Of a stretch of DNA of 64,000 nt, positions 396 to 13,993 are shown one piece after another. Origin of the DNA: Pseudomonas sp. F(2018) (GTDB lineage: Bacteria > Pseudomonadota > Gammaproteobacteria > Pseudomonadales > Pseudomonadaceae); NCBI RefSeq assembly GCF_005508865.1, contig NZ_SCOM01000002.1, forward strand, positions 310,001 to 374,000, read 5' to 3'. Numbering within the stretch: the stretch's first letter is position 1; each line of letters opens with the position of its first letter. The notes under the pieces are model-generated. The model did no database searches, was not told the origin of the DNA, and saw nothing but the letters and a program-made list of their open reading frames with translations. Both the position numbers and the translations under genes were made by a program.

Positions 396-1364
396 TCAGC
401 TGGCGTCGGCGGCCGGCGCAGCCCCGTGGCGGGACTCCCGCGGCTGACGGGCGAAGAGGCGGGCGAGCAGCCAGCGGTCGCGCAGGAACGGCTTGTTGTC
501 GAGCAGCGCGTGGACCTTGTGCAGGTTGAAGAACGGCACGCCCGGATAGACGTGGTGCTCGACGTGGTAGTTGATGTTGGCCCAGATCAGGCTGAGCACG
601 CGGCTGGGTATGGTGATGGTGTTGTGTGCCAGGTCCAGGCGCTGCTCGTCCTCGCTGCCGAGGGTGGCCATCGGGAAGTGCTCGTAGCCGCGCGAGATCG
701 GGTTGATCAGCAGCGCCAGCAGCAGCACCGGCAGGATGAAGATCAGCACGAACTGGTAGAGCATGCCCATGCTGGAGAACCAGACGCCGAGCGCCACCAT
801 CGTCACCAGGTTGAACACTAGCTCGCGCAGCACCAGGTTGCGCACCTTGCTGCCGTAGCGCACCAGGGAGAAGTAGGTGAAGCGTGGCACGAACACGGCG
901 ATGCGCAGGAACATCCACTTCACGCCGCTGGCGTAGTTCCACTCGTCCGGGTCCTTGTCCGCATCGCCCAGGTAGCGGTGGTGATACTTGTGGCACTCGG
1001 TGAAGGACGAGTAGGGGAAGACGATGAACCAGGCGAAGAAGCGCCCGACCCAGAGGTTGCAGATTCCGGAGCGGAAGGCGTTCTGGTGGCCGCAGTCGTG
1101 CTGCAGGATGGTGAAGGCGTGCATCTGGTTGCCGAGTACCAGCACGGCGAGCAGCTGCACCAGCCAGTGCTCGCTGAGCAGGATGGCGGCGGCGCCGGCG
1201 ACCCACACCGCCACATGCAGCGCCGACCAGAGCAGGAACCTGACCGGGTCGGGCTGCTGCAGGGCCAGCAGTTGCGCCTGGCGCTCGCGGTCGACCTTCA
1301 GCTCCGCGCGCTTGGCCAGGCGGATCTCGTCTTGTGCCGCCAGAATCGCTTCTCTATCCACCAC
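396..1364 (-). CDS. membrane fatty acid desaturase (di-iron, FA_desaturase family)
   Basis: A 322-residue integral membrane protein with the three histidine boxes of the FA_desaturase family: HDCGH (89-93), HKYHH (125-129) and HVEHH (267-271), separated by hydrophobic segments at about 43-65, 103-118 and 200-220. The boxes bind two irons that activate oxygen to insert a double bond (or hydroxyl/triple bond) in an acyl chain. The frame stays open far upstream into the next gene; I place the start at a GTG (1364; GTG 1361 also possible) 6 bases after AGGAAG. It lies 26 bp downstream of the ferredoxin reductase that could supply electrons. Substrate and regiochemistry cannot be read from the sequence. 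Confidence 0.88.
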   Translation of the reverse strand: MVDREAILAAQDEIRLAKRAELKVDRERQAQLLALQQPDPVRFLLWSALHVAVWVAGAAAILLSEHWLVQLLAVLVLGNQMHAFTILQHDCGHQNAFRSGICNLWVGRFFAWFIVFPYSSFTECHKYHHRYLGDADKDPDEWNYASGVKWMFLRIAVFVPRFTYFSLVRYGSKVRNLVLRELVFNLVTMVALGVWFSSMGMLYQFVLIFILPVLLLALLINPISRGYEHFPMATLGSEDEQRLDLAHNTITIPSRVLSLIWANINYHVEHHVYPGVPFFNLHKVHALLDNKPFLRDRWLLARLFARQPRESRHGAAPAADAS

Positions 1365-1390
1365 GTCCACCTTCCTCGGATTGTTCTGGG

Positions 1391-2452
1391 TTACTCGACC
1401 TGCAGTCGCACGTCGTCTGTCGCCGGATAGCCGATGCACATGAGCGCGTGGCCCATCTTCAGTTCGGCCGAGGACAGGCCATGGTCCTCGCGCATCTCCA
1501 CTTCGCCGGCCAGCTTGGTGCAGATGCAGGCGGTGCAGAAGCCGCTGCGGCAGGAGAAGGGCGGCTGTACGCCGTTGGCCAGGGCGGCTTCGAGAATGGT
1601 CTGACCCGGGGGCACGGCGAAGTTGAATTCCTGGCCCTGCATCAGCAGCTGAACCTGCTTCGGCGCGTTGGACTGCGCCGGCGGCTGGGGGCTGGCCTTG
1701 GCCGGGGTGAAGCTCTCCATGTGCACCGCTTCGGGGGGCACGCCCATGGCCTGCAGAGCCTCGGTCACTTCGTCCATCATGCCGTTGGGGCCGCAGGCGT
1801 AGTACTCGATGGCGTAGCCCGGCGGGTTCGGCAGCGCCTGGAGGATCTCGCTGACCCGCTGGCGGGTCAGACGGCCGCTGTGCGGGTGGGGCGACTCCGG
1901 CTGGGACAGCACGTGCAGCAGGTTCAGGCGCTCGCCGAACAGGCGCTGCAGCTGCTCCAGCTTGTCGCGGAAGATCACCGAGTCGGTGTTGCGGTTGCCA
2001 TAGATCAGCGATACCCGCGAGTCCGCCTCGAAATGCAGCGCCGACTTGAGGATGGAGAAGATCGGCGTGATGCCGCTGCCGGCGGCGAACAGCACCAGGT
2101 GGCGGCGCTTGCCCGGCTGCGGGGCGAAGGTGAAGCGCCCGTGGGCGCCCAGGGTATGCACCGCGTCGCCGGCGGCCAGCTGCTGCACCAGGCGGTTGGA
2201 CACCTTGCCGCCGGCGATGCGCTTGACCGTGATCGACAGGGTCTTGTCCAGGCCCGGCGTGCTGCTGATCGAGTAGGCCCGGCAGCCCTTGGCGCCGTCG
2301 CCATCCACGTCGACTTCCAGGGTCAGGTACTGGCCGGCGGTGTAGCGGATCTTCCTCAGCAGCGGCTGCTTGAGGTGGATGGTCACCGCATCCTCGGTTT
2401 CCCGCTCGATGTAGGCCACTTTCAGGGTCAGTGCTTTGCTCATGGCGTTCAC
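1391..2452 (-). CDS. ferredoxin-NADP(+) reductase with C-terminal 2Fe-2S ferredoxin domain
   Basis: About 353 residues. The N-terminal FAD domain has RAYSISS (flavin binding) and the NAD(P) domain has AAGSGITPI and YYACGPNGMM. The C-terminal plant-type ferredoxin domain has CRSGFCTAC plus a distal Cys in LMCIGYP, giving four cluster ligands. This is the PaaE/VanB-like layout that passes electrons from NAD(P)H to an oxygenase or desaturase. The start is a GTG overlapping the upstream stop by 4 bp (GTGA); an ATG at 2443 is the alternative. Its position between two desaturase genes suggests it is their dedicated reductase, which is an inference from context. Confidence 0.9.
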   Translation of the reverse strand: MNAMSKALTLKVAYIERETEDAVTIHLKQPLLRKIRYTAGQYLTLEVDVDGDGAKGCRAYSISSTPGLDKTLSITVKRIAGGKVSNRLVQQLAAGDAVHTLGAHGRFTFAPQPGKRRHLVLFAAGSGITPIFSILKSALHFEADSRVSLIYGNRNTDSVIFRDKLEQLQRLFGERLNLLHVLSQPESPHPHSGRLTRQRVSEILQALPNPPGYAIEYYACGPNGMMDEVTEALQAMGVPPEAVHMESFTPAKASPQPPAQSNAPKQVQLLMQGQEFNFAVPPGQTILEAALANGVQPPFSCRSGFCTACICTKLAGEVEMREDHGLSSAELKMGHALMCIGYPATDDVRLQVE

Positions 2453-3756
2453 GTCCGCTGCGCTTGCTGGGGGAAGTGCAGAGGGCGGGGCGCGGCCTGG
2501 TGGCCGGCGGCGCTCTGCTGGTAGGCCTGCTCATGCTCGGCGATGGGCGCGGCGGCGCAGCGGCGCTTGAGCAGGGCGACCTTCTCGGCCTGGGACAGCG
2601 GCTCCCACCAGTCCAGCTTGTCGGCCAGCGCGTTGAAGCGGCGCAGCATCAGCATGAGGAACAGGTCGAGCACGCTGAGGTCGCGGAACACCAGGGACTG
2701 CGAGGCCTTCAGTTCCGGCTTGATGCGTTCGAACAGCGCCGGGCTCTCCGACCAGTGCACGTTCTCCCAGTGGTGGTGGCAGGCGTGATAGCCCTCGTTG
2801 AGGGTGTTCACCGGCTTCTCCAGCAGGGTCACGGTGTTGTACATGAAGTCCTTGGGGTCCTGCTGGCCGCCGTAGAAGGCGTGCTGGCTCCAGTGGATAA
2901 CGCCCATCAGGAAGTTGCTCGCGCACCAGGGCACCAGCATGTACAGCACCGCGATCGGCAGGCTGTACAGCGCCAGCAGGGCGAACAGGGCCAGGTGCAG
3001 CACATTGCCGACGATCATGCTGCGCATCTGCGCCGGTTTGCGCTTGCTGCGGAAGTACAGGTACGGCGACACCAGCAGCTGCTGGTACATCACCTCGCGC
3101 ACCATGTAGACGAGGAAGTGCCAGGCGTTGGCATGGTCGTAGCGGGCGGTGGCGTAGACATCCAGCGGGCCGGCGTTTTCCCGGTGGTGCTGCTGCAGGT
3201 GCGCCGCCGCATGCGGGGTCAGGCCCATGGGGATGGCGAAGAACATGTAGAGGAAGGAGTTGCCGGTCCACTTCTCCAACACGCTGGCGCGCTTGAACAG
3301 GCCGCCGACCTTGTGGCCTTCCTGGTGCATGGAGCTGAACGAGCGCACGAAGGCGCGGATGTTCGGGCCGTAGACGCAGGCGTAGAAGCCCAGCACCAGC
3401 GGCCAGGAGATCTCCACGATGACCAGCTGGGCGATGAAGATCGGTATGGCGGTCAGGCCCAGGGTGATGGCCGCGGCCAGGATCGGCTCGTCGCGCGGGT
3501 CCTTCAGCACCCGATTCGCCAGGCGCTGGACCTGGCCGTGATAGGCGGCGGTGATGGCGCCACCGAGGGCGCAGTAGCCGGGGATCGCCTGCAGGATGCG
3601 CCGGCCCAGCTGCAGCGTCAGCGCCAGGGCGAGGATCACGCCAATGGCCGCGGTGTTGAACACCAGCAGCACGGCGAACAGGGGAATGGCGAAGAAGTGG
3701 AACAGCGGATGGATGTTGCCCGGCCGCACCGGATAGAGCGTGTCTGTCGTCGCCAT
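2449..3756 (-). CDS. membrane fatty acid desaturase, long form
   Basis: 435 residues. Histidine clusters HQEGH (144-148), HLQQHH (186-191) and HACHHH (324-329) fit the FA_desaturase di-iron pattern, with hydrophobic helices before, between and after them. It is longer than the 322-residue desaturase in the same operon and has a ~40-residue polar tail. The ATG at 3756 follows AGGAAG by 9 bases. The gene sits 82 bp after the acyl-CoA dehydrogenase and overlaps the ferredoxin reductase start. Two divergent desaturases in one operon suggest sequential modification of one acyl chain. Whether it makes an alkene, alkyne or hydroxyl group is open. Confidence 0.87.
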   Translation of the reverse strand: MATTDTLYPVRPGNIHPLFHFFAIPLFAVLLVFNTAAIGVILALALTLQLGRRILQAIPGYCALGGAITAAYHGQVQRLANRVLKDPRDEPILAAAITLGLTAIPIFIAQLVIVEISWPLVLGFYACVYGPNIRAFVRSFSSMHQEGHKVGGLFKRASVLEKWTGNSFLYMFFAIPMGLTPHAAAHLQQHHRENAGPLDVYATARYDHANAWHFLVYMVREVMYQQLLVSPYLYFRSKRKPAQMRSMIVGNVLHLALFALLALYSLPIAVLYMLVPWCASNFLMGVIHWSQHAFYGGQQDPKDFMYNTVTLLEKPVNTLNEGYHACHHHWENVHWSESPALFERIKPELKASQSLVFRDLSVLDLFLMLMLRRFNALADKLDWWEPLSQAEKVALLKRRCAAAPIAEHEQAYQQSAAGHQAAPRPLHFPQQAQRT

Positions 3757-3838
3757 GATTTCAGGCTTCCTGCTGAGTCATGTGGATCATCGCGCCGCGC
3801 CCGCACCGACCTCGGCCGGCGCGGGGCGACGCAGTGCC

Positions 3839-4990
3839 TTAGCCTTGCGCCGCCGGTGCGGCGGCCGAGTCCCGCAGGTATGCCGCGAGCAGCGGCGTGG
3901 CGGCGGCGCGGGAGATCGGGTGGAAGCAGATCGCCCGGGAGGCGGCCAACAGGTAGGCGACTTCGTCGGAGGCGATGAAGGCCATGCCACCCAGCAGCTC
4001 CACGGCCAGGTTGGTGGAACGCTCGATGGTGCCCTGGACCAGGAAGCGGGTGCACAGCGCCTTGCTGTAGCTGGCCTCGTCGGCGGCGCGCTGTTCTTCC
4101 AGGTCACGGGCCGCACCGACCAGGGCCTGGTGCGCGCCTTCCAGTTCGATGGCCAGCTGGGCCAGCGGGGCATCCTCGGTGTGGCGTTTCTTCAGCAGCA
4201 GCTCGACCAGCGCCGAAGCCACGCCCAGGTAGGTGCCGCCGACCATCAGCTGGAACCAGCAGAGGCCGGACAGCGAGGTTTCCTGGGCGGAGGCGGCCAC
4301 TGCTTCGTCGTCCACGGCCTCGGCCAGCAGCATGCGCTCGGCGGGCACGAACACGTCGTCGAAGACCAGCGCGTTGCTGTCGGCGGCCTGCAGCACCGGG
4401 GTATTCCAGAAGCGCTCGCGGGATACCCCGTTGCCGTCGTTGAACACCACGGCGAAGCCCTGGGTGATGCTGCCGTCATCGTTCTCGCGGGCCACGCCGA
4501 CGACTATCACGTCCATGTTGTGGCTCATGGTGCAGGGCTTCTTGGTGCCGCGCAGCAGGTAGCCGCCCTCGACCGGGGTGACCTTGACGCTGGTGTTGAA
4601 GATCTCCGCGCCGACCTTGCCTTCGGCGAATGCCGAGGCGATCAGCAGCTGGTCCTGGCAGATGCCGTAGAGCAGCTCGTCCGCCGCCGGAATCAGACCG
4701 CCGAGCTGCACGATGGTGGCGATGGTGTGGTGGTGCATGGTCATCATCACCGCCAGCGACGGGCTCAGGGCGCCGACCGCGCGCAGTATCTCCACCGTCT
4801 CGCGCGGCGAGGCGCCGAGGCCGCCGTAGGTCTCGGGGATGATCAGGCCGGCGGCCTTGTAAGAGCGGAACAGCTCGCACAGCTCGCTGGAATCTGCCTT
4901 CTCCAGCGCCATGCGGCCGCGGGCTTCCAGGGCGGCGATCAGGCCCGGCAGGCGGGCTTCGGTGACGCTTCGTGCGTGTTTCATCGACAT
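3839..4990 (-). CDS. acyl-CoA dehydrogenase-like flavoprotein (TamT-like)
   Basis: 383 residues with the acyl-CoA dehydrogenase fold: a helical N-terminus with PETYGGLGAS (53-62), a middle beta domain, and a C-terminal helical domain with ELLGGMAF. In standard family members a YEGT-type loop with the catalytic Glu follows; here the aligned segment reads CFHPISRA, so that Glu is not in its usual place. Tambjamine TamT is a related enzyme that oxidises an ACP-bound chain at C3-C4. Position between the aminotransferase/reductase and a desaturase supports an ACP-bound substrate. The start at 4990 is tentative; MKHARS at 4984 is equally possible. Confidence 0.82.
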   Translation of the reverse strand: MSMKHARSVTEARLPGLIAALEARGRMALEKADSSELCELFRSYKAAGLIIPETYGGLGASPRETVEILRAVGALSPSLAVMMTMHHHTIATIVQLGGLIPAADELLYGICQDQLLIASAFAEGKVGAEIFNTSVKVTPVEGGYLLRGTKKPCTMSHNMDVIVVGVARENDDGSITQGFAVVFNDGNGVSRERFWNTPVLQAADSNALVFDDVFVPAERMLLAEAVDDEAVAASAQETSLSGLCWFQLMVGGTYLGVASALVELLLKKRHTEDAPLAQLAIELEGAHQALVGAARDLEEQRAADEASYSKALCTRFLVQGTIERSTNLAVELLGGMAFIASDEVAYLLAASRAICFHPISRAAATPLLAAYLRDSAAAPAAQG

Positions 4991-5017
4991 GGGATAGTTC
5001 TCGAGTTGTTCTTGTGG

Positions 5018-7642
5018 TTATCCGGCCATCTCGACCAGTTGCTCGACGGCGGGGGCGAAACCGAAGTTCAGGGCCAGCTCGAAGATGGCCTCGGCCTCTT
5101 CCAGCGGCGGACGCTTGCCGATGCTGTAGTCGCGCGTCTTGCCGGCCATGGTCAGCACCATGGTTTCGGCCAGGCAGCTGAAGGTCACGCCGGTGGGCAG
5201 GTCGGTGAGGTTCTGGTTGCCGAAGCGGTAGCCGCGCTCGGGCAGGTGGATCAGGCCACCCTCTATGACCGTCACGTCCGGACGCTGCGGCAGCGAGGAA
5301 TGACCAATATCCGGCGGCTGCGCGCAGTCGCAGATGATCGCGTTGTGGTGCAGCGCGGCCGGGTCGATGAAGGCGGAGCCGTTGGAGGTGGCCGAGAGCA
5401 CGGCCTCCAGCTTGGGCAGCCAGTGGGCCAGGTCGGAGGCGACCACCACCGGCGGTTGCACGTTGCTGTGCTGGCGAACCAGGGCATCGACGGCGTCGAA
5501 CAGCTCGCGCAGCTGGGCGTCGTCACCCAGGTCGCGCTCCAGCAGGCTGGCCACCGTCTGCTGCGACAGCAGCGCGGCGAGGGGCTTGCCGATACCGCTC
5601 GGGTGCCCGCTGTGGATGCCGCGCAGGGCCGTGGCATACAGCTCGCCGCCGACCAGCCGCAGCTCGTGCATGGCGCCCTGGTTGGCCGCGTTGCCGAGCA
5701 GCACCAGGTGTTCGGTGAACTTGCCCAGGCGCAGGCTGGCCAGGCGGCCCACAGAGCCGTAGGCACCGATCACCCCGGTCAGCCGCTTGGCCAGCGGCGC
5801 GCCGCGGTTGGCGCAGGTGCTGAGCAGGGCGTCGACGCCGACCATGGCGGTGAGGCTGTTGCCGGTGGTGGTGTGGAAGCGGTCGTTGACCACGTCCAGG
5901 CCGGCGTTGGAGATCACCGAGGTGTAGGCGCCGAGGCCGACGAAGTCGACGCCCAGCGGGCGCACCGCGTCCAGGTAGTTGTCGATCAGCTTGCGCCGCT
6001 TGCCCAGGCTCAGGCGCATCAGGTCGCGCGGGTGCAGCAGGCTGCCGACCAGCCAGCCTTCCACGTAGTCGCCCTGGTCGTTGTAGATCTGCCGGGCATG
6101 GAAGGACACGCCGGCATCCAGGTCGGGCTTGGCCCAGTCGGAGAACTCGGCCAGCCAGTCCTGCATGAAGGCCTTCTCCTCGCCGACCACACCAAGGGCG
6201 TCGACTATGTTGTCGCCGTTGACGCTCTCCTGGGTGGTGGGGTGCAGCAGGAAGGCGAAGCGTCCCAGGCAGCGGCCGCCACGGTCATGGTTGCGCGGCT
6301 TGCCGGCGCTGGGCGCCGACCACTTGGCCAGCGGCCCGCGCTGGGCAGGGAAGCCCTGGGCCTCGAGGATCAGGCGGTGCTGCTGGTCGTGGGCGATCAG
6401 CTCGGCGGCGGCGGTCAGGCCGTCCACCAGCACGTCGATATCTTCCTGGGCGATGCTCAGCGGCGGCTGGATGCGCAGCACGTTGCCCTCGTTGAGGGTC
6501 GGCAGGCAGTACACGCCATGGCGGGTCTTCAGGTAGCCGCAGACGATGGGCACCAGGGCGCCGAAGGCGCTGGCCAGGGACAGGGTGTAGAGGCGCTCGC
6601 CGGACCAGCGGCGGAACTTGAGGCCGAGCATCAGGCCGCGGCCGTCGAGGCTCTCGAACACCTGCGGGTAGCTTTGCACCAGGTTTTCCAGACGGGTGCG
6701 CAGATAGCCGCCGCGCTCGGCCGCCTGGCGCACCACGGCGCGGTCGTTGGCGGTGAGGTGCTCGACCACCGCCAGGCCGATGGCCGCGGTGAAGCCGTTC
6801 ACGCCGAAGGTGGAGCTGTGGTGGCGGTCGAAGTCGCGGCTCCAGCACTGCTCGCCGTAGATGCAAGCGCCGATCGGCACCAGACCGCCGCCCAGCGCCT
6901 TGGCCAGCAGCAGCATGTCGGGGGTGAGGCCGTTGGCTTCGGCGGCGAACAGCTGGCCGGTGCGGCCCAGGCCGGTCTGGATCTCGTCCAGCACGAACAG
7001 GGCGCCGTGCTTGCGGCACAGGTTCTGCGCCGCCAGCAGGTAGCCCGCCGGCGGGGTGATCATGCCGGCCTCGCCCTGGACCGCCTCGACGAAGAAGGCG
7101 GCGACGCGCTGCTCCTTCAATATCGCTTCGAGGGCTTCCAGGTCGCCATAGGGCACGTGGCTGAAACCGTTGCCGCGGATATGGAAGGGCTCGCGGTAGA
7201 CCGGCTTGCCGGTCACACCCACGGCGCCCTGGGTCTTGCCGTGGAAGCCGGTGTGGGTGCCGACGATCAGCTCGCGGTTGGTGGCGGCGCGCGCCAGCTT
7301 GATGGCGGCCTCCACCGTCTCCGCGCCACTGGTGGCGAAGCTGACCCTGGCCATCTCGCCGGGCGCGATCTCGATCAGGCGCGCGGCCAGTTGCTCGGCC
7401 AGCGGGTTGCCCAGAGGCTGGATGAAGGAGGGCAGGCCGGAGTCGAGGAAGGCGATGGCCGCCTCGCGGATATGTGGCGCGCCATAGCCGAACGGCACGG
7501 CGCCGAACTGGCCGACGAAGTCGATCAGCGTATGGCCGCTGGCGGTGGTGATGCGGGTACCTTGGGCGCTGGTCACCGTCTCGTCGAGACCGGCGAAGTC
7601 GAGCAGTTCCTGGCGGGTGCGGTTGATCAGGGAAGGGCTCAT
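5018..7642 (-). CDS. bifunctional class III aminotransferase / acyl-ACP reductase fusion (TamH-like)
   Basis: 874 residues in two halves. Residues ~1-430 are a class III PLP aminotransferase: SFATSGAETVEAAIK (101-115), LDEIQTGLGRTG (218-229) and the Schiff-base Lys248 in LLLAKALGGG. Residues ~455-874 resemble cyanobacterial acyl-ACP reductase (AAR): FHTTTGNS (589-596), the nucleotide-binding GVIGAYGSVGR (623-633), and FSCLAETM (821-828), where Cys823 aligns with the catalytic Cys of AAR (FACFAEAM, from memory). The expected chemistry is acyl-ACP to aldehyde with NADPH, then aldehyde to primary amine. TamH of tambjamine synthesis also combines reductase and aminotransferase activity. It lies 6 bp after the ACP gene. 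Confidence 0.85.
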   Translation of the reverse strand: MSPSLINRTRQELLDFAGLDETVTSAQGTRITTASGHTLIDFVGQFGAVPFGYGAPHIREAAIAFLDSGLPSFIQPLGNPLAEQLAARLIEIAPGEMARVSFATSGAETVEAAIKLARAATNRELIVGTHTGFHGKTQGAVGVTGKPVYREPFHIRGNGFSHVPYGDLEALEAILKEQRVAAFFVEAVQGEAGMITPPAGYLLAAQNLCRKHGALFVLDEIQTGLGRTGQLFAAEANGLTPDMLLLAKALGGGLVPIGACIYGEQCWSRDFDRHHSSTFGVNGFTAAIGLAVVEHLTANDRAVVRQAAERGGYLRTRLENLVQSYPQVFESLDGRGLMLGLKFRRWSGERLYTLSLASAFGALVPIVCGYLKTRHGVYCLPTLNEGNVLRIQPPLSIAQEDIDVLVDGLTAAAELIAHDQQHRLILEAQGFPAQRGPLAKWSAPSAGKPRNHDRGGRCLGRFAFLLHPTTQESVNGDNIVDALGVVGEEKAFMQDWLAEFSDWAKPDLDAGVSFHARQIYNDQGDYVEGWLVGSLLHPRDLMRLSLGKRRKLIDNYLDAVRPLGVDFVGLGAYTSVISNAGLDVVNDRFHTTTGNSLTAMVGVDALLSTCANRGAPLAKRLTGVIGAYGSVGRLASLRLGKFTEHLVLLGNAANQGAMHELRLVGGELYATALRGIHSGHPSGIGKPLAALLSQQTVASLLERDLGDDAQLRELFDAVDALVRQHSNVQPPVVVASDLAHWLPKLEAVLSATSNGSAFIDPAALHHNAIICDCAQPPDIGHSSLPQRPDVTVIEGGLIHLPERGYRFGNQNLTDLPTGVTFSCLAETMVLTMAGKTRDYSIGKRPPLEEAEAIFELALNFGFAPAVEQLVEMAG

Positions 7643-7648
7643 GCTGGC

Positions 7649-7900
7649 TTACCTCGCATCCCCGGTGATGACGGAATGCAGGTGCGCGCTGATCTTGCGC
7701 ACGCTGTCATGCTGGTAGGCGAACTCGGGATCCAGCGAGATGCCGAAGAGGTCCTCGAACTCGGCAGAGAGTCCGACGATGAGGACCGAGTCGACGCCCA
7801 TCTCGTGGAACGAGCGCTCCAGGTCGAGGGAGCTCGAGTCGAGTTCCAGTAGCCCAGCCACGGTCGCCGTGACGGAGGCGGTTATCTCGTCAATATGCAC
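7649..7900 (-). CDS. acyl carrier protein
   Basis: 83 residues, the normal ACP length. GVDSVLIVGL contains the phosphopantetheine-acceptor Ser (residue 38) at the start of helix II, and the protein is acidic. The GTG start follows GGAGG by 5 bases. It is the first gene of the minus-strand operon and immediately precedes the aminotransferase/reductase. No ketosynthase, malonyl transferase or condensation domain accompanies it, so it most likely receives a preformed fatty acid from the fatty acyl-AMP ligase at 9129-10979 and presents it to the tailoring enzymes. Confidence 0.92.
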   Translation of the reverse strand: MHIDEITASVTATVAGLLELDSSSLDLERSFHEMGVDSVLIVGLSAEFEDLFGISLDPEFAYQHDSVRKISAHLHSVITGDAR

Positions 7901-8114
7901 ATGTCCTCCACAAGTTCCCTGTCCATATAAAAAGGTCTATATCGCCACGCAGTGGAATAAGACTTGGGCGTTGTAAGCGCAGCGGCATGAATGCCCGAAG
8001 GCGTGAATAATTGTTCTTATGGTGCTGCGCGAAATTACTCTCGAGGACAAGTGTTTTCCTTGTGGGATATCACTTGGGAGTTGCGATGTTGGGTGTCCGA
8101 TGTTTCGCGCTCAA

Positions 8115-8130
8115 TACTCCAAGTGGAGTA
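8115..8130. promoter_or_regulatory. candidate operator, 16-bp palindrome, copy 1
   Basis: TACTCCAAGTGGAGTA is a perfect palindrome with 7-bp arms around AG. A related sequence matching at 13 of 16 positions occurs at 11101-11116 upstream of the acyl-AMP ligase. Length and symmetry fit a dimeric LuxR/GerE-type regulator, and one is encoded between the two sites. It is about 215 bp upstream of the ACP start. Binding is inferred. Confidence 0.55.
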
Positions 8131-8202
8131 ATGGCACCGGTTATTTGTGACTTTTGCGCTGGCATATAAACGTCATGAATTATCTGGGGCGAACGGCAAT
8201 AT

Positions 8203-8229
8203 GGGACGGCAGTTCAATACTGCCGTCCC
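8203..8229. terminator. hairpin after the LuxR gene, probable terminator
   Basis: A perfect 11-bp stem (GGGACGGCAGT / ACTGCCGTCCC) with a 5-nt loop lies 28 bp past the LuxR stop codon. The run following it on the minus strand is only moderately T-rich (ATATTGCC), so termination may be partial. Confidence 0.5.
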
Positions 8230-8256
8230 AGTTGTTATTTAGGGGGGAGTTGTCTG

Positions 8257-9132
8257 TTATTCGTCGGAGAATAACGCGGCGATCTGGGCCCGACTCGATG
8301 CATGCAGTTTGCTGAGGATGTTCTGCATGTGGGTCTTCACCGTCTTGTCGCTGATGCCGAGGATCTGGCCGATTTCCCAGTTGGTCTTGCCGCGCACCAC
8401 CCAGCGGGCGATCTCGGTTTCCCGGCTCGACAGCAGCGAGGACGCCTGGGGGCTGCCGCGATCGTTCTGCTGCTCGCGCAGCTGTTTGCTGCCGCGTACG
8501 CGGTTCAGCGCGATGTGCAGGTAGGGCGCCAGCACGGTCATGCGCAGTTTGTTCTCGTGGCTGATGTTGGCGGCCGCGTTGACGAAGTAGTAGCCGGTGA
8601 AGGTGTTGCGCTGCAGTCCCGGGAGCACCATCCAGGCCACGTTGTCGATGCCGTGACGGCGGAAGATATCGGCCCAGATGCACTCGGTCGGGGTCTTCAG
8701 GTCGCAGGTGGTAGTGAACTTCGGGCGCCCGTAATGCTCGGCCAGGTCGATGTCCAGCGGCGGCACCAGGCCTTCGTTGCCGACGATCTCGCCCAGGCAC
8801 TCCTCCGACATGGCATCGGTATGGATCAGGTTGTAGACGAAGGCGCGGTGCGCCCTGATCCGGCCGCTGGCGAAGATGAAGTGTTCGCACGGCAGGTACA
8901 TCGCCAGGGCCTGCTGAGTGCGCAGCTTGAGGTCGTCTATGGTGCGTACCGAGGCGATGGCCGTCAGCATCCGCACCAGGGTCAGGCGCTCCTGATTGGC
9001 CTCCGGCAACAGCGGCAGCACCGGCGGCGAGTTGCGCTCACTGTCATACACGGCCGCCAGCGGTGCCCTCAGGGTATGCACCAGGCCGGAGGTCGGAGCT
9101 CGGAGCAGGGCACTGCCCGCCAGGAAACTCAT
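8257..9132 (-). CDS. LuxR-family transcriptional regulator
   Basis: 291 residues. The C-terminal ~60 residues form a GerE/LuxR helix-turn-helix: LSSRETEIARWVVRGKTNWE followed by IGQILGISDKTVKTHMQNIL. The N-terminal ~210 residues have no phosphoacceptor receiver motif and are not a clear acyl-homoserine-lactone domain; they resemble the ligand-binding half of solo LuxR proteins only loosely. The gene overlaps the acyl-AMP ligase stop by 4 bp (ATGA), so regulator and ligase are co-translated. It is the likely local controller of both arms of the fatty-amine cluster. Confidence 0.88.
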   Translation of the reverse strand: MSFLAGSALLRAPTSGLVHTLRAPLAAVYDSERNSPPVLPLLPEANQERLTLVRMLTAIASVRTIDDLKLRTQQALAMYLPCEHFIFASGRIRAHRAFVYNLIHTDAMSEECLGEIVGNEGLVPPLDIDLAEHYGRPKFTTTCDLKTPTECIWADIFRRHGIDNVAWMVLPGLQRNTFTGYYFVNAAANISHENKLRMTVLAPYLHIALNRVRGSKQLREQQNDRGSPQASSLLSSRETEIARWVVRGKTNWEIGQILGISDKTVKTHMQNILSKLHASSRAQIAALFSDE

Positions 9133-10979
9133 GCTTCCAGGGTCTGGCTGTTGAGAGTGGAATCGAGCAGGACACGACCGCCAAGCTCGGCGACCACGAC
9201 TTTCCTGCTCACCTCGATGCTGTCCGCCGGCAATTCCTCATGCAGCGCGCGGATCAATGGTTCGAACAGGCGCCGACACTCCTGGCGCCTGACCTTGCCG
9301 CTGGACGTGCGCGGCAGCGTGCCGCCGAACACCAGCAGGACTATGGGTTGTGCCACCCGGTGCTGTTGCCAGAGATCGGCCTTGATGTCGGCCAGCACGC
9401 GCGCCACGTCCAATTGCCGGACGGAGCGCCGCTCCACTTCCTGGGCCACCACCAGTTGCTCGCTGTCCTCCAGCTCGACGCTGAACACCGCCGAGCCGTC
9501 CGGGCGGAAGCTCTCGTCGGCGCGGAACACCGTGCTCTCGATATCGCCGGGATGGTGGTTGACGCCATTGAGGATGATCAGGTCCTTGAGGCGGCCGGTG
9601 ACATACAGCTCGCCGTCGAGCAGGAAACCGAGATCACCGCTGCGGAAGTAGTTGCTGTGTCCGGCCTGTTCCGGGCGCGCCGGGAGGAATGCCTCGGCGG
9701 TGCTCTCCGGGCGTCGCCAGTAGCCCTGGGCGACGCTGTCGCCGACCACGCAGATCTCGCCGACCCGGCCCTCGGGCAGGCGTTCGCCGGTCTGCGGATC
9801 GCCGATGAAGGGCTCGTGGCCGGGAATGCCGCGCCCGCTGCTGACCAGGGTGCGTACCCGCACCTCCGGCGACTCCATGACGAAGGCGTGGGCCACCGGC
9901 TCGGCGCGGTTGTCTTCGAGCAGCGGGGCATGGAAGTGGCGGATCACCGGCTCGCGCACGGCGCGGTCGCAGGTGACCAGCAGAGTGCCTTCGGCCAGGC
10001 CGTAGCAGGGGAAGGCCGCACCGCTTTTGAAGCCGCAGCGGGAGAACTTGGCGTGGAAGGACTCGAGCGTCTGCGCCCGCACATGCTCGGCGCCGTTGAA
10101 GGCGATCTCCCAGCAGCTGAGGTCGAGGTCGGCCAGTTCCTCGTCCTTGACCTTCTTCAGGCACAGTTCATAAGCGAAGTTGGGGCCGCCGCTGATGGTG
10201 CCGCGGTACTTGCTGATGGCCTGCAACCAGCGCAGCGGGCGTTGCAGGAAGTGGATCGGTGCCATCAGGGTGCAGGGGTAGCCGACATAGACCGACTGCA
10301 GGATGCCGCCGATCAGGCCCATGTCGTGGTAAGGCGGCAGCCAGCTGACGTTGTGGCTGCCCTGATGGGTGGAGAAGTTCTCGTGGATGCTCTGCGAGTT
10401 GTGGATCAGGTTGCCGTGGGTGACCACCACGCCCTTGGGCGTGCCGGTGGAGCCCGAGGTGTATTGCAGGAAGGCGGCGTCGGCGCGGGTGACCGCGACC
10501 GGGCTCCAGTCGCTGGCGCTGGTGTCGAGCTGGGTGATGTCCAGCACCTGTGTCGCCGGTGCCGTCTCGGCCAGCCGGGTGCGAATCGCCTCGGTGTCTT
10601 CCCGGGTGGTCAGGGCCGCCGCCGGGTTGCAGTCGCCGAGGATGCCGTCCAGGCGATCCAGGGTCTTGGTGGCGCCTGGCGGGTAGGCCGGCACCGCGAT
10701 CAGGCCGGCATACAGGCAGGCGAGGAAGCCGGTCACATAGTCGAGGCCTGGTTTGAGCAGGATCAGCACCCGGTCGCCCGGCACGCAATGGCGTTGCAGG
10801 GCGGCGGCCGCGGCGCGGGCGGCGCGGTCCAGTTCGGCGAAGGTGATGGTGATCTCGTTATCGCGGCCGTCCAGCAGAAAACGGTAGGCGAGTTGATCGG
10901 GAATCGTCTTGGCGTGGTGTTGCAGACTCTCCGCGAAGTTTGCGTAAGAGAGGTGCTGGTTATGCTCTTTTTCGATCAT
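9129..10979 (-). CDS. fatty acyl-AMP ligase (fatty acid:ACP loading enzyme)
   Basis: 616 residues of the ANL superfamily. Motifs include the P-loop YTSGSTGTPKG (~173-183), SWLPPYHDMGLIGG, which is typical of fatty acyl-AMP ligases, YGLAEGTLLV, and RSGDLGFLLDGELYVTGRLKD. It should adenylate a free fatty acid and transfer it to the phosphopantetheine arm of the ACP at 7649-7900, as TamA-like and lipopeptide starter ligases do. There is no fused carrier domain. The ATG follows GGGGAAAG by about 9 bases. It is first in a two-gene operon with the LuxR regulator. Confidence 0.9.
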   Translation of the reverse strand: MIEKEHNQHLSYANFAESLQHHAKTIPDQLAYRFLLDGRDNEITITFAELDRAARAAAAALQRHCVPGDRVLILLKPGLDYVTGFLACLYAGLIAVPAYPPGATKTLDRLDGILGDCNPAAALTTREDTEAIRTRLAETAPATQVLDITQLDTSASDWSPVAVTRADAAFLQYTSGSTGTPKGVVVTHGNLIHNSQSIHENFSTHQGSHNVSWLPPYHDMGLIGGILQSVYVGYPCTLMAPIHFLQRPLRWLQAISKYRGTISGGPNFAYELCLKKVKDEELADLDLSCWEIAFNGAEHVRAQTLESFHAKFSRCGFKSGAAFPCYGLAEGTLLVTCDRAVREPVIRHFHAPLLEDNRAEPVAHAFVMESPEVRVRTLVSSGRGIPGHEPFIGDPQTGERLPEGRVGEICVVGDSVAQGYWRRPESTAEAFLPARPEQAGHSNYFRSGDLGFLLDGELYVTGRLKDLIILNGVNHHPGDIESTVFRADESFRPDGSAVFSVELEDSEQLVVAQEVERRSVRQLDVARVLADIKADLWQQHRVAQPIVLLVFGGTLPRTSSGKVRRQECRRLFEPLIRALHEELPADSIEVSRKVVVAELGGRVLLDSTLNSQTLEA

Positions 10980-11372
10980 GTGCTCAACTTTCCCCGATCA
11001 CTTATATCGATCTTCTATGACCATTATTCCGAACAACCGGAGCCGTCTGCGTAGAAGGCTTTGCCGCATTCATCCTCTTGAAGCATCTATCCGAAGGGAA
11101 TACTCCAAACGGCGTATATCTGCCATCTCTCTCCCTACCGCATATTCGACAGACGGTCCGATATGTCGACGAGTTCAACTCCCGAAGGACTTCAGCTCTT
11201 TTGGTGTCCTTATATGTGAACCGGCAGGTTCTATATTTCGCGATATTACAAAGCCAGCGCTATTGGATTGGATGCTGTTATTTCGAACACTTGCACATGA
11301 ATAGTGCAGGCCGATGACAGCCACTCTCCAAGAATGCGTTGCGTTGAATGAACAACCCGTCAGGAGAGTGCG
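10980..11372. other. divergent intergenic region between acyl-AMP ligase and amidase
   Basis: 393 bp between two divergent operons, AT-richer than the surrounding genes and without a credible ORF. It must contain promoters for both directions. The only sequence element I can support is the imperfect 16-bp palindrome at 11101-11116. Confidence 0.6.
11101..11116. promoter_or_regulatory. candidate operator, 16-bp palindrome, copy 2
   Basis: TACTCCAAACGGCGTA matches copy 1 (8115-8130) at 13 of 16 positions, including the whole left half TACTCCAA and the right-end GTA. It lies 122 bp upstream of the acyl-AMP ligase start and about 257 bp upstream of the amidase start, so it could coordinate both. 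Confidence 0.5.
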
Positions 11373-12842
11373 ATGCCCTTTAGCGAATACGCAGAATTCG
11401 ATGCCCTCGGGCTTGCCGAGTTGGTCAGGAAGCGCGAGGTGCAGCCCTCCGAACTGGTAGAGGAGTCGATCCGCCGCATCGAGGCCCTCAACCCCGCGAC
11501 CAACGCGGTGGTCTACAAGGCCTACGACACGGCCAGGGCACTGGCGGCGCAACAGGACCGGGCCACGCCTGCCGGCCCGCTGCATGGCGTGCCGTTCCTG
11601 CTCAAGGACATCCTCGGCGATTGCCAGGGCATGCCGTCGGCACTGTCGTCGTGCATGTTGCGCGAGCGGGTGATGGAGCAGGACTGCGAGCTGGTCAGCC
11701 GCTGGCGCAAGGCCGGGCTGAATTTCATCGGCAAATCCAACACCCCGGAGTTCGGCATCCTGCCGACCACCGAATGCGCCTTCTACGGGCCGGCGCGCAA
11801 TCCCTGGAACCTGGACTACTCGACCGGCGGCTCCAGCGGCGGCGCGGCGGCGGCGGTGGCCTGCGGCATGGTGCCGGCGGCCCACGGCAATGATGGTGGC
11901 GGCTCGATCCGCATTCCCGCCTCGTGCTGCGGCCTGGTGGGGCTCAAGCCGACCCGCGCACGCAACTCGCTGGCCCCGGATTTCGGCGAATTGCTCAGCG
12001 GCCTGCTCGACGAGCATGTGCTGACCCGCACGGTGCGCGACAGCGCCGCCTTGCTCGATGCCACCCACGGCGTGGTGCCGGGCGATCCCTATCGCGCTCC
12101 GCCGGTGAGCGGCACCTTCCTCGGCGAGCTGGCGCGCGAGCCCGGCAAACTGCGCATCGCCTTCTCCCGCGTCGACCCGGCCGGTCGGCCGCTGCATCCC
12201 GATTGCATCGAGGCGGTGGAGAAGACTGCCAGGCTGCTGGAATCGCTCGGCCATGTGGTCGAGGAGGCGCAGCCGCAGATCGAGCCGGAAAGCTTCGTCG
12301 GTGCCTTCACCACCCTGTGGTTCTCCGGCATCGCCTTCGCCGTGGAACTGATGAGCCTGCAACTGGGGCGCCCTCCGCAGGAGGGCGAGCTGGAAGGCCT
12401 GACCCGTGCAGTGCAGCAGCGTGGCCGTGCCGTCAGCGCGGTGGAATACCAGCTGTCCGAGCTGGTGCTGCAGCAGGTCGGCCGGGAGATGGCGCGTTTC
12501 CATCAGACCTACGACTGCTGGCTGACGCCGACCCTGGCGACCCCGCCGATCCGCAATGGTGTGGTCGATGTGCAGGAACAGGACCTGGACAAGGCCTACG
12601 CACCGCTGCTGGACTACAGCCCGTTCACCGCCATCCACAACGCCTCCGGGCAGCCGGCCATTTCCCTGCCGGTGCACTGGAATGCCGCGGGCCTGCCGAT
12701 CGGCCTGATGCTCAGCGCCGAGTTCGGCGGCGAGGCGCTGCTGCTGCGCCTGGCCGGCCAGCTGGAACAGGCGCAACCGTGGAAGCAGCGGCGCCCGGAG
12801 CTGTTCCTGCAGCTGCAGGCCGCCGCCCCGGCGCTGGCCTGA
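11373..12842 (+). CDS. amidase signature family hydrolase
   Basis: 489 residues with the Ser-cisSer-Lys triad of the amidase signature family: Lys78 in FLLKDI, Ser154 in [12 protein letters not shown] and Ser178 in [10 protein letters not shown]. Length and layout match bacterial relatives of fatty acid amide hydrolase and other C-N hydrolases; no signal peptide is visible, so it is cytoplasmic. The ATG follows AGGAGAG. It is transcribed away from the acyl-AMP ligase and is 14 bp from a desaturase. Cleavage (or reverse formation) of an amide derived from the cluster's amine is plausible, but that is an inference from context. Confidence 0.88.
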
Positions 12843-12856
12843 GCGAGGAGGGCGCG

Positions 12857-13993
12857 ATGACGGTCCACGAGCCCCTGCGGCAAACCGCGGAAACTGCCGT
12901 GCCCTGGCCCACCGACGCGCTGAGCCGCGAGGAGCTGGCGCGCTTCGGCAAGGAGCTGATCCGCCAGACGCTGCCCTTCACCGTCGAGGATCGGCGCCGC
13001 AGCTGGTGGCATTTCTGGACCAGCTTCGCGGCGCTCGCGCTGTTCGGCGTCGGCGCCGCCGCACCGCTGTGGTGGCCGCTGCGCCTGGTGTTCAGCGTGC
13101 TGCTCGGGCTGGCGCTGGTGCGCATGTTCGTGCTGTTCCATGACTACATGCATGGCGCGATATTGCGCGGCTCGCGCTTCGCCGATCTGTTCTTCAAGGG
13201 CTACGGCCTGATGCTGCTGGCGCCGCCGACGCTGTGGAAGCAGTCCCACGACTACCACCACGGCCACAGCTGCCAGTACGTCGGTGCCGAGCAGGGGCGC
13301 CTGCCGCTGCTGTCCACCCATACCGACCTGGGCACCTTCCCGCTGATCTCCACCGAGGAGTACGCCCGCGCCAGCACCTGGAAGCGCCTGCGCTATCGCA
13401 TCGCGCGCCACCCGCTGATGATCCTGCTCGGTTCGCAGACCATCTTCGTGTTCAGCATCTGCCTGGTCTCGCTGATCACCCAGCCGCGCCACCGCTGGTG
13501 GTCGCTGCTGGCCCTGTCGCTGAACCTGGCCACGGTGCTGCTGCTGTCGCACTTCGCCCCCGACCTGCTGCTGTACCTGCTGCTGATCCCCATCCTGGTG
13601 GGCTCGGCGCTGGGCGTGTACATGTTCTACTGCCAGCACAACTTCCCCGGCGCGCGTTACCCCCAGGGCGAGGACTGGGACTACGTGGAGACGGCGATCC
13701 ATTCCTCCAGCTACATGCGCACCGGACCGGTCATGGCCTGGTTCACCGCCAATATCGGCTACCACCATGTGCACCATGCCAATTCGACCATCCCTTTCTA
13801 TCGCCTGCCCGAGGCGATGGCGGCGATCCCGGCGCTGCGCGAGCCGACCGTCACCTCGCTGCATCCGCGTGATATCTGGCGCTGCCTCAGCCTCAAGCTG
13901 TGGGACCCGGCGGCCAAACGCATGATCAGCTTCCGCGAGTTCCACCAGCAGGCCGCCGCCCGGGCCGCCGAGGGAATTTCGCAGGGGGCTTAA
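12857..13993 (+). CDS. membrane fatty acid desaturase (third of the cluster)
   Basis: 378 residues with histidine boxes HDYMH (95-99), HDYHHGH (131-137) and HHVHH (303-307) and hydrophobic segments at ~55-92, 186-208 and 215-258. It belongs to the FA_desaturase family but differs in spacing from the two minus-strand desaturases. It forms a two-gene operon with the amidase (14-bp gap, GAGGAGG before the ATG). It may act on the same acyl chain, or on membrane lipid feeding the acyl-AMP ligase. Confidence 0.87.
   Translation: MTVHEPLRQTAETAVPWPTDALSREELARFGKELIRQTLPFTVEDRRRSWWHFWTSFAALALFGVGAAAPLWWPLRLVFSVLLGLALVRMFVLFHDYMHGAILRGSRFADLFFKGYGLMLLAPPTLWKQSHDYHHGHSCQYVGAEQGRLPLLSTHTDLGTFPLISTEEYARASTWKRLRYRIARHPLMILLGSQTIFVFSICLVSLITQPRHRWWSLLALSLNLATVLLLSHFAPDLLLYLLLIPILVGSALGVYMFYCQHNFPGARYPQGEDWDYVETAIHSSSYMRTGPVMAWFTANIGYHHVHHANSTIPFYRLPEAMAAIPALREPTVTSLHPRDIWRCLSLKLWDPAAKRMISFREFHQQAAARAAEGISQGA

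Follow-up and report, generated by a model that had tools for sequence, protein, structure and literature searches.

Two inverted repeats in a ten-gene cluster

The stretch of Pseudomonas sp. F(2018) analysed here (the window: 64,000 nucleotides, contig NZ_SCOM01000002.1, positions 310,001 to 374,000) carries a ten-gene cluster with three predicted transcripts: an acyl carrier protein (ACP) operon; a transcript in which luxR, encoding a LuxR-type regulator, overlaps a fatty acyl-AMP ligase gene by four bases; and a divergent amidase–desaturase transcript. Two short inverted repeats, operators A and B, lie upstream of the ACP operon and between the ligase and amidase genes, respectively (Table 1). 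The initial annotation had matched their 16-mers TACTCCAAGTGGAGTA (8115–8130) and TACTCCAAACGGCGTA (11101–11116) at 13 of 16 positions, placed luxR between them, and predicted that one regulator controls all three transcripts; the identity, the positions and the gene layout are as it described. We consider it likely that luxR encodes a LuxR-type activator dedicated to the cluster, with the two sites as its operators. At the sequence level, the locus displays a defined element that is conserved, nearly confined to the cluster, found together with luxR, and fixed in place upstream of weak promoter-like hexamers; from these features we infer binding of the LuxR protein, activation, and a ligand.

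When the window was scanned with TACTCCAAGTGGAGTA allowing up to 3 mismatches, 3 rows were obtained (the two sites, one of them on both strands) against 0.08 expected, and none of 100 shuffles reached 3 rows. The motif is not common in the genome either: across all 4.74 Mb, sites A and B are the only places with the TACTCCAANNNGNGTA form, and likewise the only exact matches to the core form TACTCCNNNNGGMGTA. Allowing one mismatch adds 10 distinct places outside the cluster, and all four of those inspected lie under open frames of at least 100 codons. These look like background, because the backwards pattern gives about three times as many rows as the true one (44 versus 15).

Conservation of the sites and co-occurrence with luxR

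A search with the LuxR protein, in which 80 stretches were tested, returned at least 28 loci in named genomes. Eight Pseudomonas loci matched over residues 38–284 or more and one Alkalilimnicola locus over residues 71–290, while 19 matched in the C-terminal part only. Soil strains of P. chlororaphis and P. mandelii are among the carriers returned. The site scan covered loci L003–L012 (the other 18, with C-terminal LuxR matches only, were left out), and both sites were present in 8/8 Pseudomonas loci. Together with three further members of the genus (G382, G108 and G361) and the window, these loci make 12 distinct clusters; G001, G123, G351, G378 and G379 were judged identical to the genomes of L010, L006, L008, L005 and L004, and were counted once. 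Each of the 12 contains both sites, with each pattern occurring once per stretch, and all share one set of ten genes in a single order, although the stretch of L051 ends within the last desaturase.

Comparison of the 12 clusters also refines the element. Site A of the window is a perfect 7-2-7 palindrome and site B an imperfect one (5 of 7 pairs by eye). The term "16-bp palindrome" slightly overstates the element, because the inner four bases vary among the clusters; constraint falls on TACTCC-N4-GG(A/C)GTA, a 6-4-6 inverted repeat around a free centre, and on a TT towards ACP and the ligase. In an ungapped alignment, mean information was 2.0 bits in the operator core, which served as the anchor of the alignment, compared with 0.43 bits in the flanks of A (9 rows) and 0.73 bits in those of B (6 rows). 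Scanning every 4-mer pair with gaps of 0–16 on both strands of the 24 intergenic regions yielded 8 dyads common to all 24, every one a piece of the element with flanking A/T, and none shared by 20–23 regions; in ten base-shuffled region sets, a null that ignores relatedness, no dyad exceeded 6 of 24. Because one kind of gap alone shares 59 (A) or 67 (B) dyads across all 12 clusters, and A and B lie in different gaps, the element stands out through what A and B have in common.

The spacing of site A is informative as well. The luxR–ACP gap measures 354 bases in L009, 908 in L008, 1355 in G361 and 2484 in L007, and the distance from site A to the ACP start is 183, 184, 182 and 183 bases, respectively; in L010 and its relatives the site is nearer, at about 120 bases. 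Since this distance stays at 182–184 bp while the gap grows by 0.55–2.1 kb, site A is, as judged from position, part of the ACP promoter and not of the end of luxR. The extra DNA of L007 (10757–13041, about 2.1 kb relative to L009, between luxR and site A) encodes a DUF6124/DUF3077 protein and a colicin/pyocin immunity gene (12502–12768), and is for the latter reason unlikely to be part of the pathway; L008 and G361 have smaller insertions in the same gap. In the window, the gap also contains a perfect 12-bp inverted repeat just past luxR (8202–8230); on the minus strand its folding greatly exceeds that of shuffles (z –5.7), but the T-rich tail is on the plus strand.

Co-occurrence was evaluated in 398 genomes of the genus, with at most 6 LuxR candidates scored per genome. 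The 18-base form AATACTCCNNNNGGMGTA was found in 15 genomes, nine of which have it at exactly two places, 2.8–4.0 kb apart, and six at one place, always in the GGCGTA form. LuxR protein matches at E 1e-20 occurred in 9/398 genomes, the same nine as those with the site pair (Fisher's exact test, 1.6e-18, for related genomes in which events are not independent). The eight carriers besides the own genome contain 17 exact places of the 12-base core, of which 16 are in the cluster; the remaining one, in G108, falls within an open frame of 841 codons. Five of the six single matches in luxR-less genomes fall under open frames of at least 100 codons. The sixth, L046:1685–1700, is under no 100-codon open frame, and a related stretch exists in L049 (90% over 149 bases).

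Beyond the genus, a survey of 369 genomes of the class yielded LuxR-profile matches in the own genome and in a single further one; none of the remaining nine cluster proteins had a match in the 16.5-kb stretch (L055) of the latter. The aminotransferase fusion had 8 matches besides the own genome, none full-length and at most 44% identical, and searches of plasmids and phages gave no match at E 1e-15.

Promoter geometry, the regulator and alternative explanations

In class II activation by LuxR-type proteins, the operator adjoins the –35 element, and a comparable arrangement is found here. In the ACP direction, site A is followed in 12/12 clusters by TTGAG(C/A/G), 17 bases and (C/G)A(A/C/G)CAT; in the ligase direction, site B is followed in 12/12 by TTCCCT, TTCCTT, TTTCCT or TTAACT, 17 bases and (G/C)AGGAT. 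For both predicted promoters, the operator thus adjoins a –35-like hexamer at a fixed distance from the –10-like hexamer. Should the –10-like hexamers prove genuine, the operator would be centred near –43.5, about the class II activator position. The geometry supports all three predicted promoters, strongly for ACP and ligase and with looser spacing for amidase. Within the predicted ACP leader there is also a hairpin (8048–8076, z –2.5) with GGA in its upper stem; by eye, similar sequence is found only in L003–L005 among the rows aligned. A site of the Rsm type is conceivable here, but those sites carry GGA in the loop.

The proposed binder possesses a C-terminal GerE domain (PF00196, E 3.5e-20; present in 10/10 aligned proteins), whereas Pfam detected no sensor domain, and no receiver domain was found. 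Its best NCBIfam relative is EpsA (TIGR03020), matched by all 10 aligned proteins but below cut-off in the window (103.6 versus 170 bits); the NarL family matched only the C-terminal part and fell short of its cut-off (32.7 versus 250 bits), and a PHROGs scan gave only weak matches to helix-turn-helix parts. Across 13 aligned sequences, the window included, the putative recognition helix (SDKTVKTHxQNI) shows little or no variation. A structural model predicted from 10 sequences had a mean predicted local distance difference test score (pLDDT) of 75, with residues 1–43 under 50, and a predicted template-modelling score of 0.62. Among the best 50 of 64 matches at E 0.001, the closest structures were full-length CviR, SdiA and QscR, a ranking to which the shared GerE domain contributes; TM-scores on the query of 0.38–0.46 and root-mean-square deviations of at least 10 indicate that the domains of the model are arranged differently. 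Matches to the sensor domain only included CviR (E 5e-7), CepR2 and LasR, as well as the GAF domain of Lcd1 (E 1e-4), on account of which the model makes a GAF-like sensor for another ligand possible. A LuxI synthase gave no match in the genome, nor in the control genomes.

Several other explanations of the sites can be weighed against this evidence. There is a negligible prospect that chance or a dispersed repeat accounts for the similarity. The six luxR-less genomes with one exact 18-base match are about as many as a reversed control would suggest (5 matches in 3 of the 398 genomes), which is why we treat those single matches as chance. For the pair itself, chance is ruled out by the window shuffles, the genome-wide count, the 398-genome survey and the dyad scan, and a dispersed repeat by the absence of a third exact copy in the own genome and by the core counts in the eight other carriers. 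A GerE-type regulator from elsewhere in the genome, for example a response regulator of the NarL/NarP type, might bind the sites while the cluster LuxR acts on something else, but this is highly improbable. The sites do have a NarL-like 7-2-7 outline, and 89 matches to a NarL model were obtained across the genome, three of them covering almost the full model; however, the best reaches 125.7 of the 250 bits of the NCBIfam NarL cut-off, more than two sites would be expected for a general regulator, and the pair tracks luxR, being absent from all 389 other genomes. Binding of the LuxR protein as a repressor released by a ligand is improbable. Some LuxR-type proteins repress, and a position adjoining –35 does not by itself exclude repression. 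The –10/–35 hexamers of the window, however, match the sigma-70 consensus at no more than 4 of 6 positions (by eye), as fits promoters needing help, an argument qualified by the better –35, TTGAGA (5 of 6 consensus positions), in 3/12 clusters.

Other observations weigh against operators of a single dedicated activator. The Alkalilimnicola homologue (L011) has one site in the expected gap, with one mismatch, and shuffling the whole locus also produces a match in 13 of 100 cases; site B was not found there, and two desaturase 2 paralogues (4839–7369) take the place of the Pseudomonas amidase and desaturase 3, both unmatched at that locus. Because the carriers are related, with some LuxR proteins 94–96% identical to that of the window, the cluster counts are not independent. 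Ordinary sigma-70 promoters were not found in the two gaps, which says little because shuffles give only 0.5–0.7. The amidase side is the least regular: the hexamer varies (CATATT, CATAGT or AATAAT), its spacing from the B-adjoining hexamer is 17–18 bases, and the half-site there has C for A (GGCGTA). Control could accordingly be limited to the ACP and ligase promoters, with the amidase transcript independent, and site A, which lacks a conserved promoter on the opposite side, makes one-sided action possible. Nevertheless, one of these A/T-rich hexamers occurs at that spacing in 12/12 rows, and GGCGTA is itself kept in 12/12, so that we regard a two-promoter arrangement as unlikely, though worth bearing in mind.

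Under the preferred reading of a dedicated activator, a LuxR dimer, probably bound to a small hydrophobic ligand, would sit on TACTCC-N4-GG(A/C)GTA and recruit RNA polymerase to promoters with little strength of their own. The ACP operon would be fired from operator A; operator B, between two divergent promoters, would fire the ligase–luxR transcript and, with less support, the amidase–desaturase transcript. With B in the ligase–luxR promoter, luxR would stimulate its own transcription in a positive feedback, and the fatty-acid-modifying pathway would be switched as one unit. Rarity, conservation, luxR co-occurrence and promoter geometry all support the prediction of one regulator for three transcripts, and the case for a shared operator has gained much over what the two initial matches could offer. 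We also entertain, as a doubtful extension, a LuxR lineage that combines a sensor fold like that of acyl-homoserine-lactone receptors with a short NarL-like operator and responds to a product or intermediate of the fatty-amine-like pathway that it controls; one operator would then serve two divergent promoters and the second the remaining operon, as a self-contained feed-forward switch.

The predicted pathway and comparison with known systems

Table 1. Predicted genes and regulatory features of the cluster (window positions)
Feature	Position	Strand	Remarks
Operator A, TACTCC-N4-GGAGTA	8115..8130	.	upstream of ACP operon; in 12/12 clusters
–35-like hexamer TTGAGC, adjoining operator A	8109..8114	-	TTGAG in 12/12
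–10-like hexamer CAACAT, 17-bp spacer	8086..8091	-	[CG]A[ACG]CAT in 12/12; inferred start near 8079
Operator B, TACTCC-N4-GGCGTA	11101..11116	.	between divergent ligase and amidase genes; in 12/12 clusters
–35-like hexamer TTCCCT, adjoining operator B, ligase-facing	11095..11100	-	
–10-like hexamer GAGGAT, 17-bp spacer, ligase-facing	11072..11077	-	[GC]AGGAT in 12/12
–10-like hexamer CATATT, amidase-facing	11141..11146	+	18 bp past hexamer adjoining operator B; 17–18 bp across clusters
LuxR-type regulator	8257..9132	-	proposed binder; C-terminal GerE; N-terminal half predicted to fold like acyl-homoserine-lactone receptors and GAF domains
Fatty acyl-AMP ligase	9129..10979	-	first gene of ligase–luxR transcript
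ACP	7649..7900	-	first gene of ACP operon
Class III aminotransferase	5018..7642	-	C-terminal part without Pfam match; best NCBIfam PigE, below cut-off; TamH-like arrangement proposed
Acyl-CoA dehydrogenase-like protein	3839..4990	-	
Fatty acid desaturase	2449..3756	-	
Ferredoxin reductase-like protein	1391..2452	-	FAD, NAD and 2Fe-2S domains
Fatty acid desaturase	396..1289	-	
Amidase	11373..12842	+	first gene of divergent transcript
Fatty acid desaturase	12839..13993	+	second gene of divergent transcript

The fatty-amine branch of tambjamine synthesis offers an analogy for the cluster (396–13993): there, TamA is described as loading a fatty acid on its ACP and TamH as reducing and aminating it (PMC9594044). 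The likeness to TamA and TamH comprises activation of a fatty acid on an ACP and, as proposed for the class III aminotransferase here, an aminotransferase–reductase fusion (PMC9594044); in contrast to the tambjamine cluster, ligase and ACP are separate genes here, and no bipyrrole gene was recognised among the ten cluster genes scanned. A search of the open-licence literature found no report of this cluster in Pseudomonas, and a literature search with the half-site letters returned nothing related. The analysis provides a precise predicted operator and promoter map for the cluster and names a regulator whose removal or overexpression could reveal the cluster product. In addition, the LuxR protein offers a clean test case, as its sensor half recalls one branch of the family and its predicted operator another.

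Acyl-homoserine-lactone receptors of the LuxR family (CviR, QscR and SdiA) are the best structural matches of the predicted regulator among the matches listed. Unlike those receptors, however, the proteins here gave no match to the Autoind_bind Pfam domain (10/10 aligned proteins, E 0.1). The placement of the operator next to a –35-like hexamer is that of class II lux-box promoters, whereas the lux box is 20 bp long and the operator here is TACTCC-N4-GGAGTA. In outline, the sites resemble the NarL/NarP operators of E. coli, which share inverted TAC..CC / GG..GTA half-sites recognised by a GerE-domain protein. The NarL-type layout of two inverted heptamers 2 bp apart fits window site A, but across the 12 clusters the inner base of each heptamer is free (6-4-6). 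Further differences here are the two exact sites in the genome and a regulator in which no receiver domain was found. An engineered NarL 7-2-7 site, given as TACCCCTAAAGGGGTA, departs from the core here by one base per half (PMC4549865).

Two regulators of Pseudomonas biosynthetic clusters are likewise comparable. SyrF of Pseudomonas syringae is a LuxR-like regulator of such a cluster with a conserved box around the target –35, although the product class is different and the syr-syp box is described as 20 bp (PMC4783005). PgnC of the P. protegens polyyne cluster is a pathway-specific activator of a fatty-acid-derived cluster with an inverted repeat in the target intergenic region; it belongs to another regulator family, and the paper refers to AraC-family binding sites for the repeat (PMC12016544). 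The predicted regulator–operator pair is well defined and new, and its kind is familiar.

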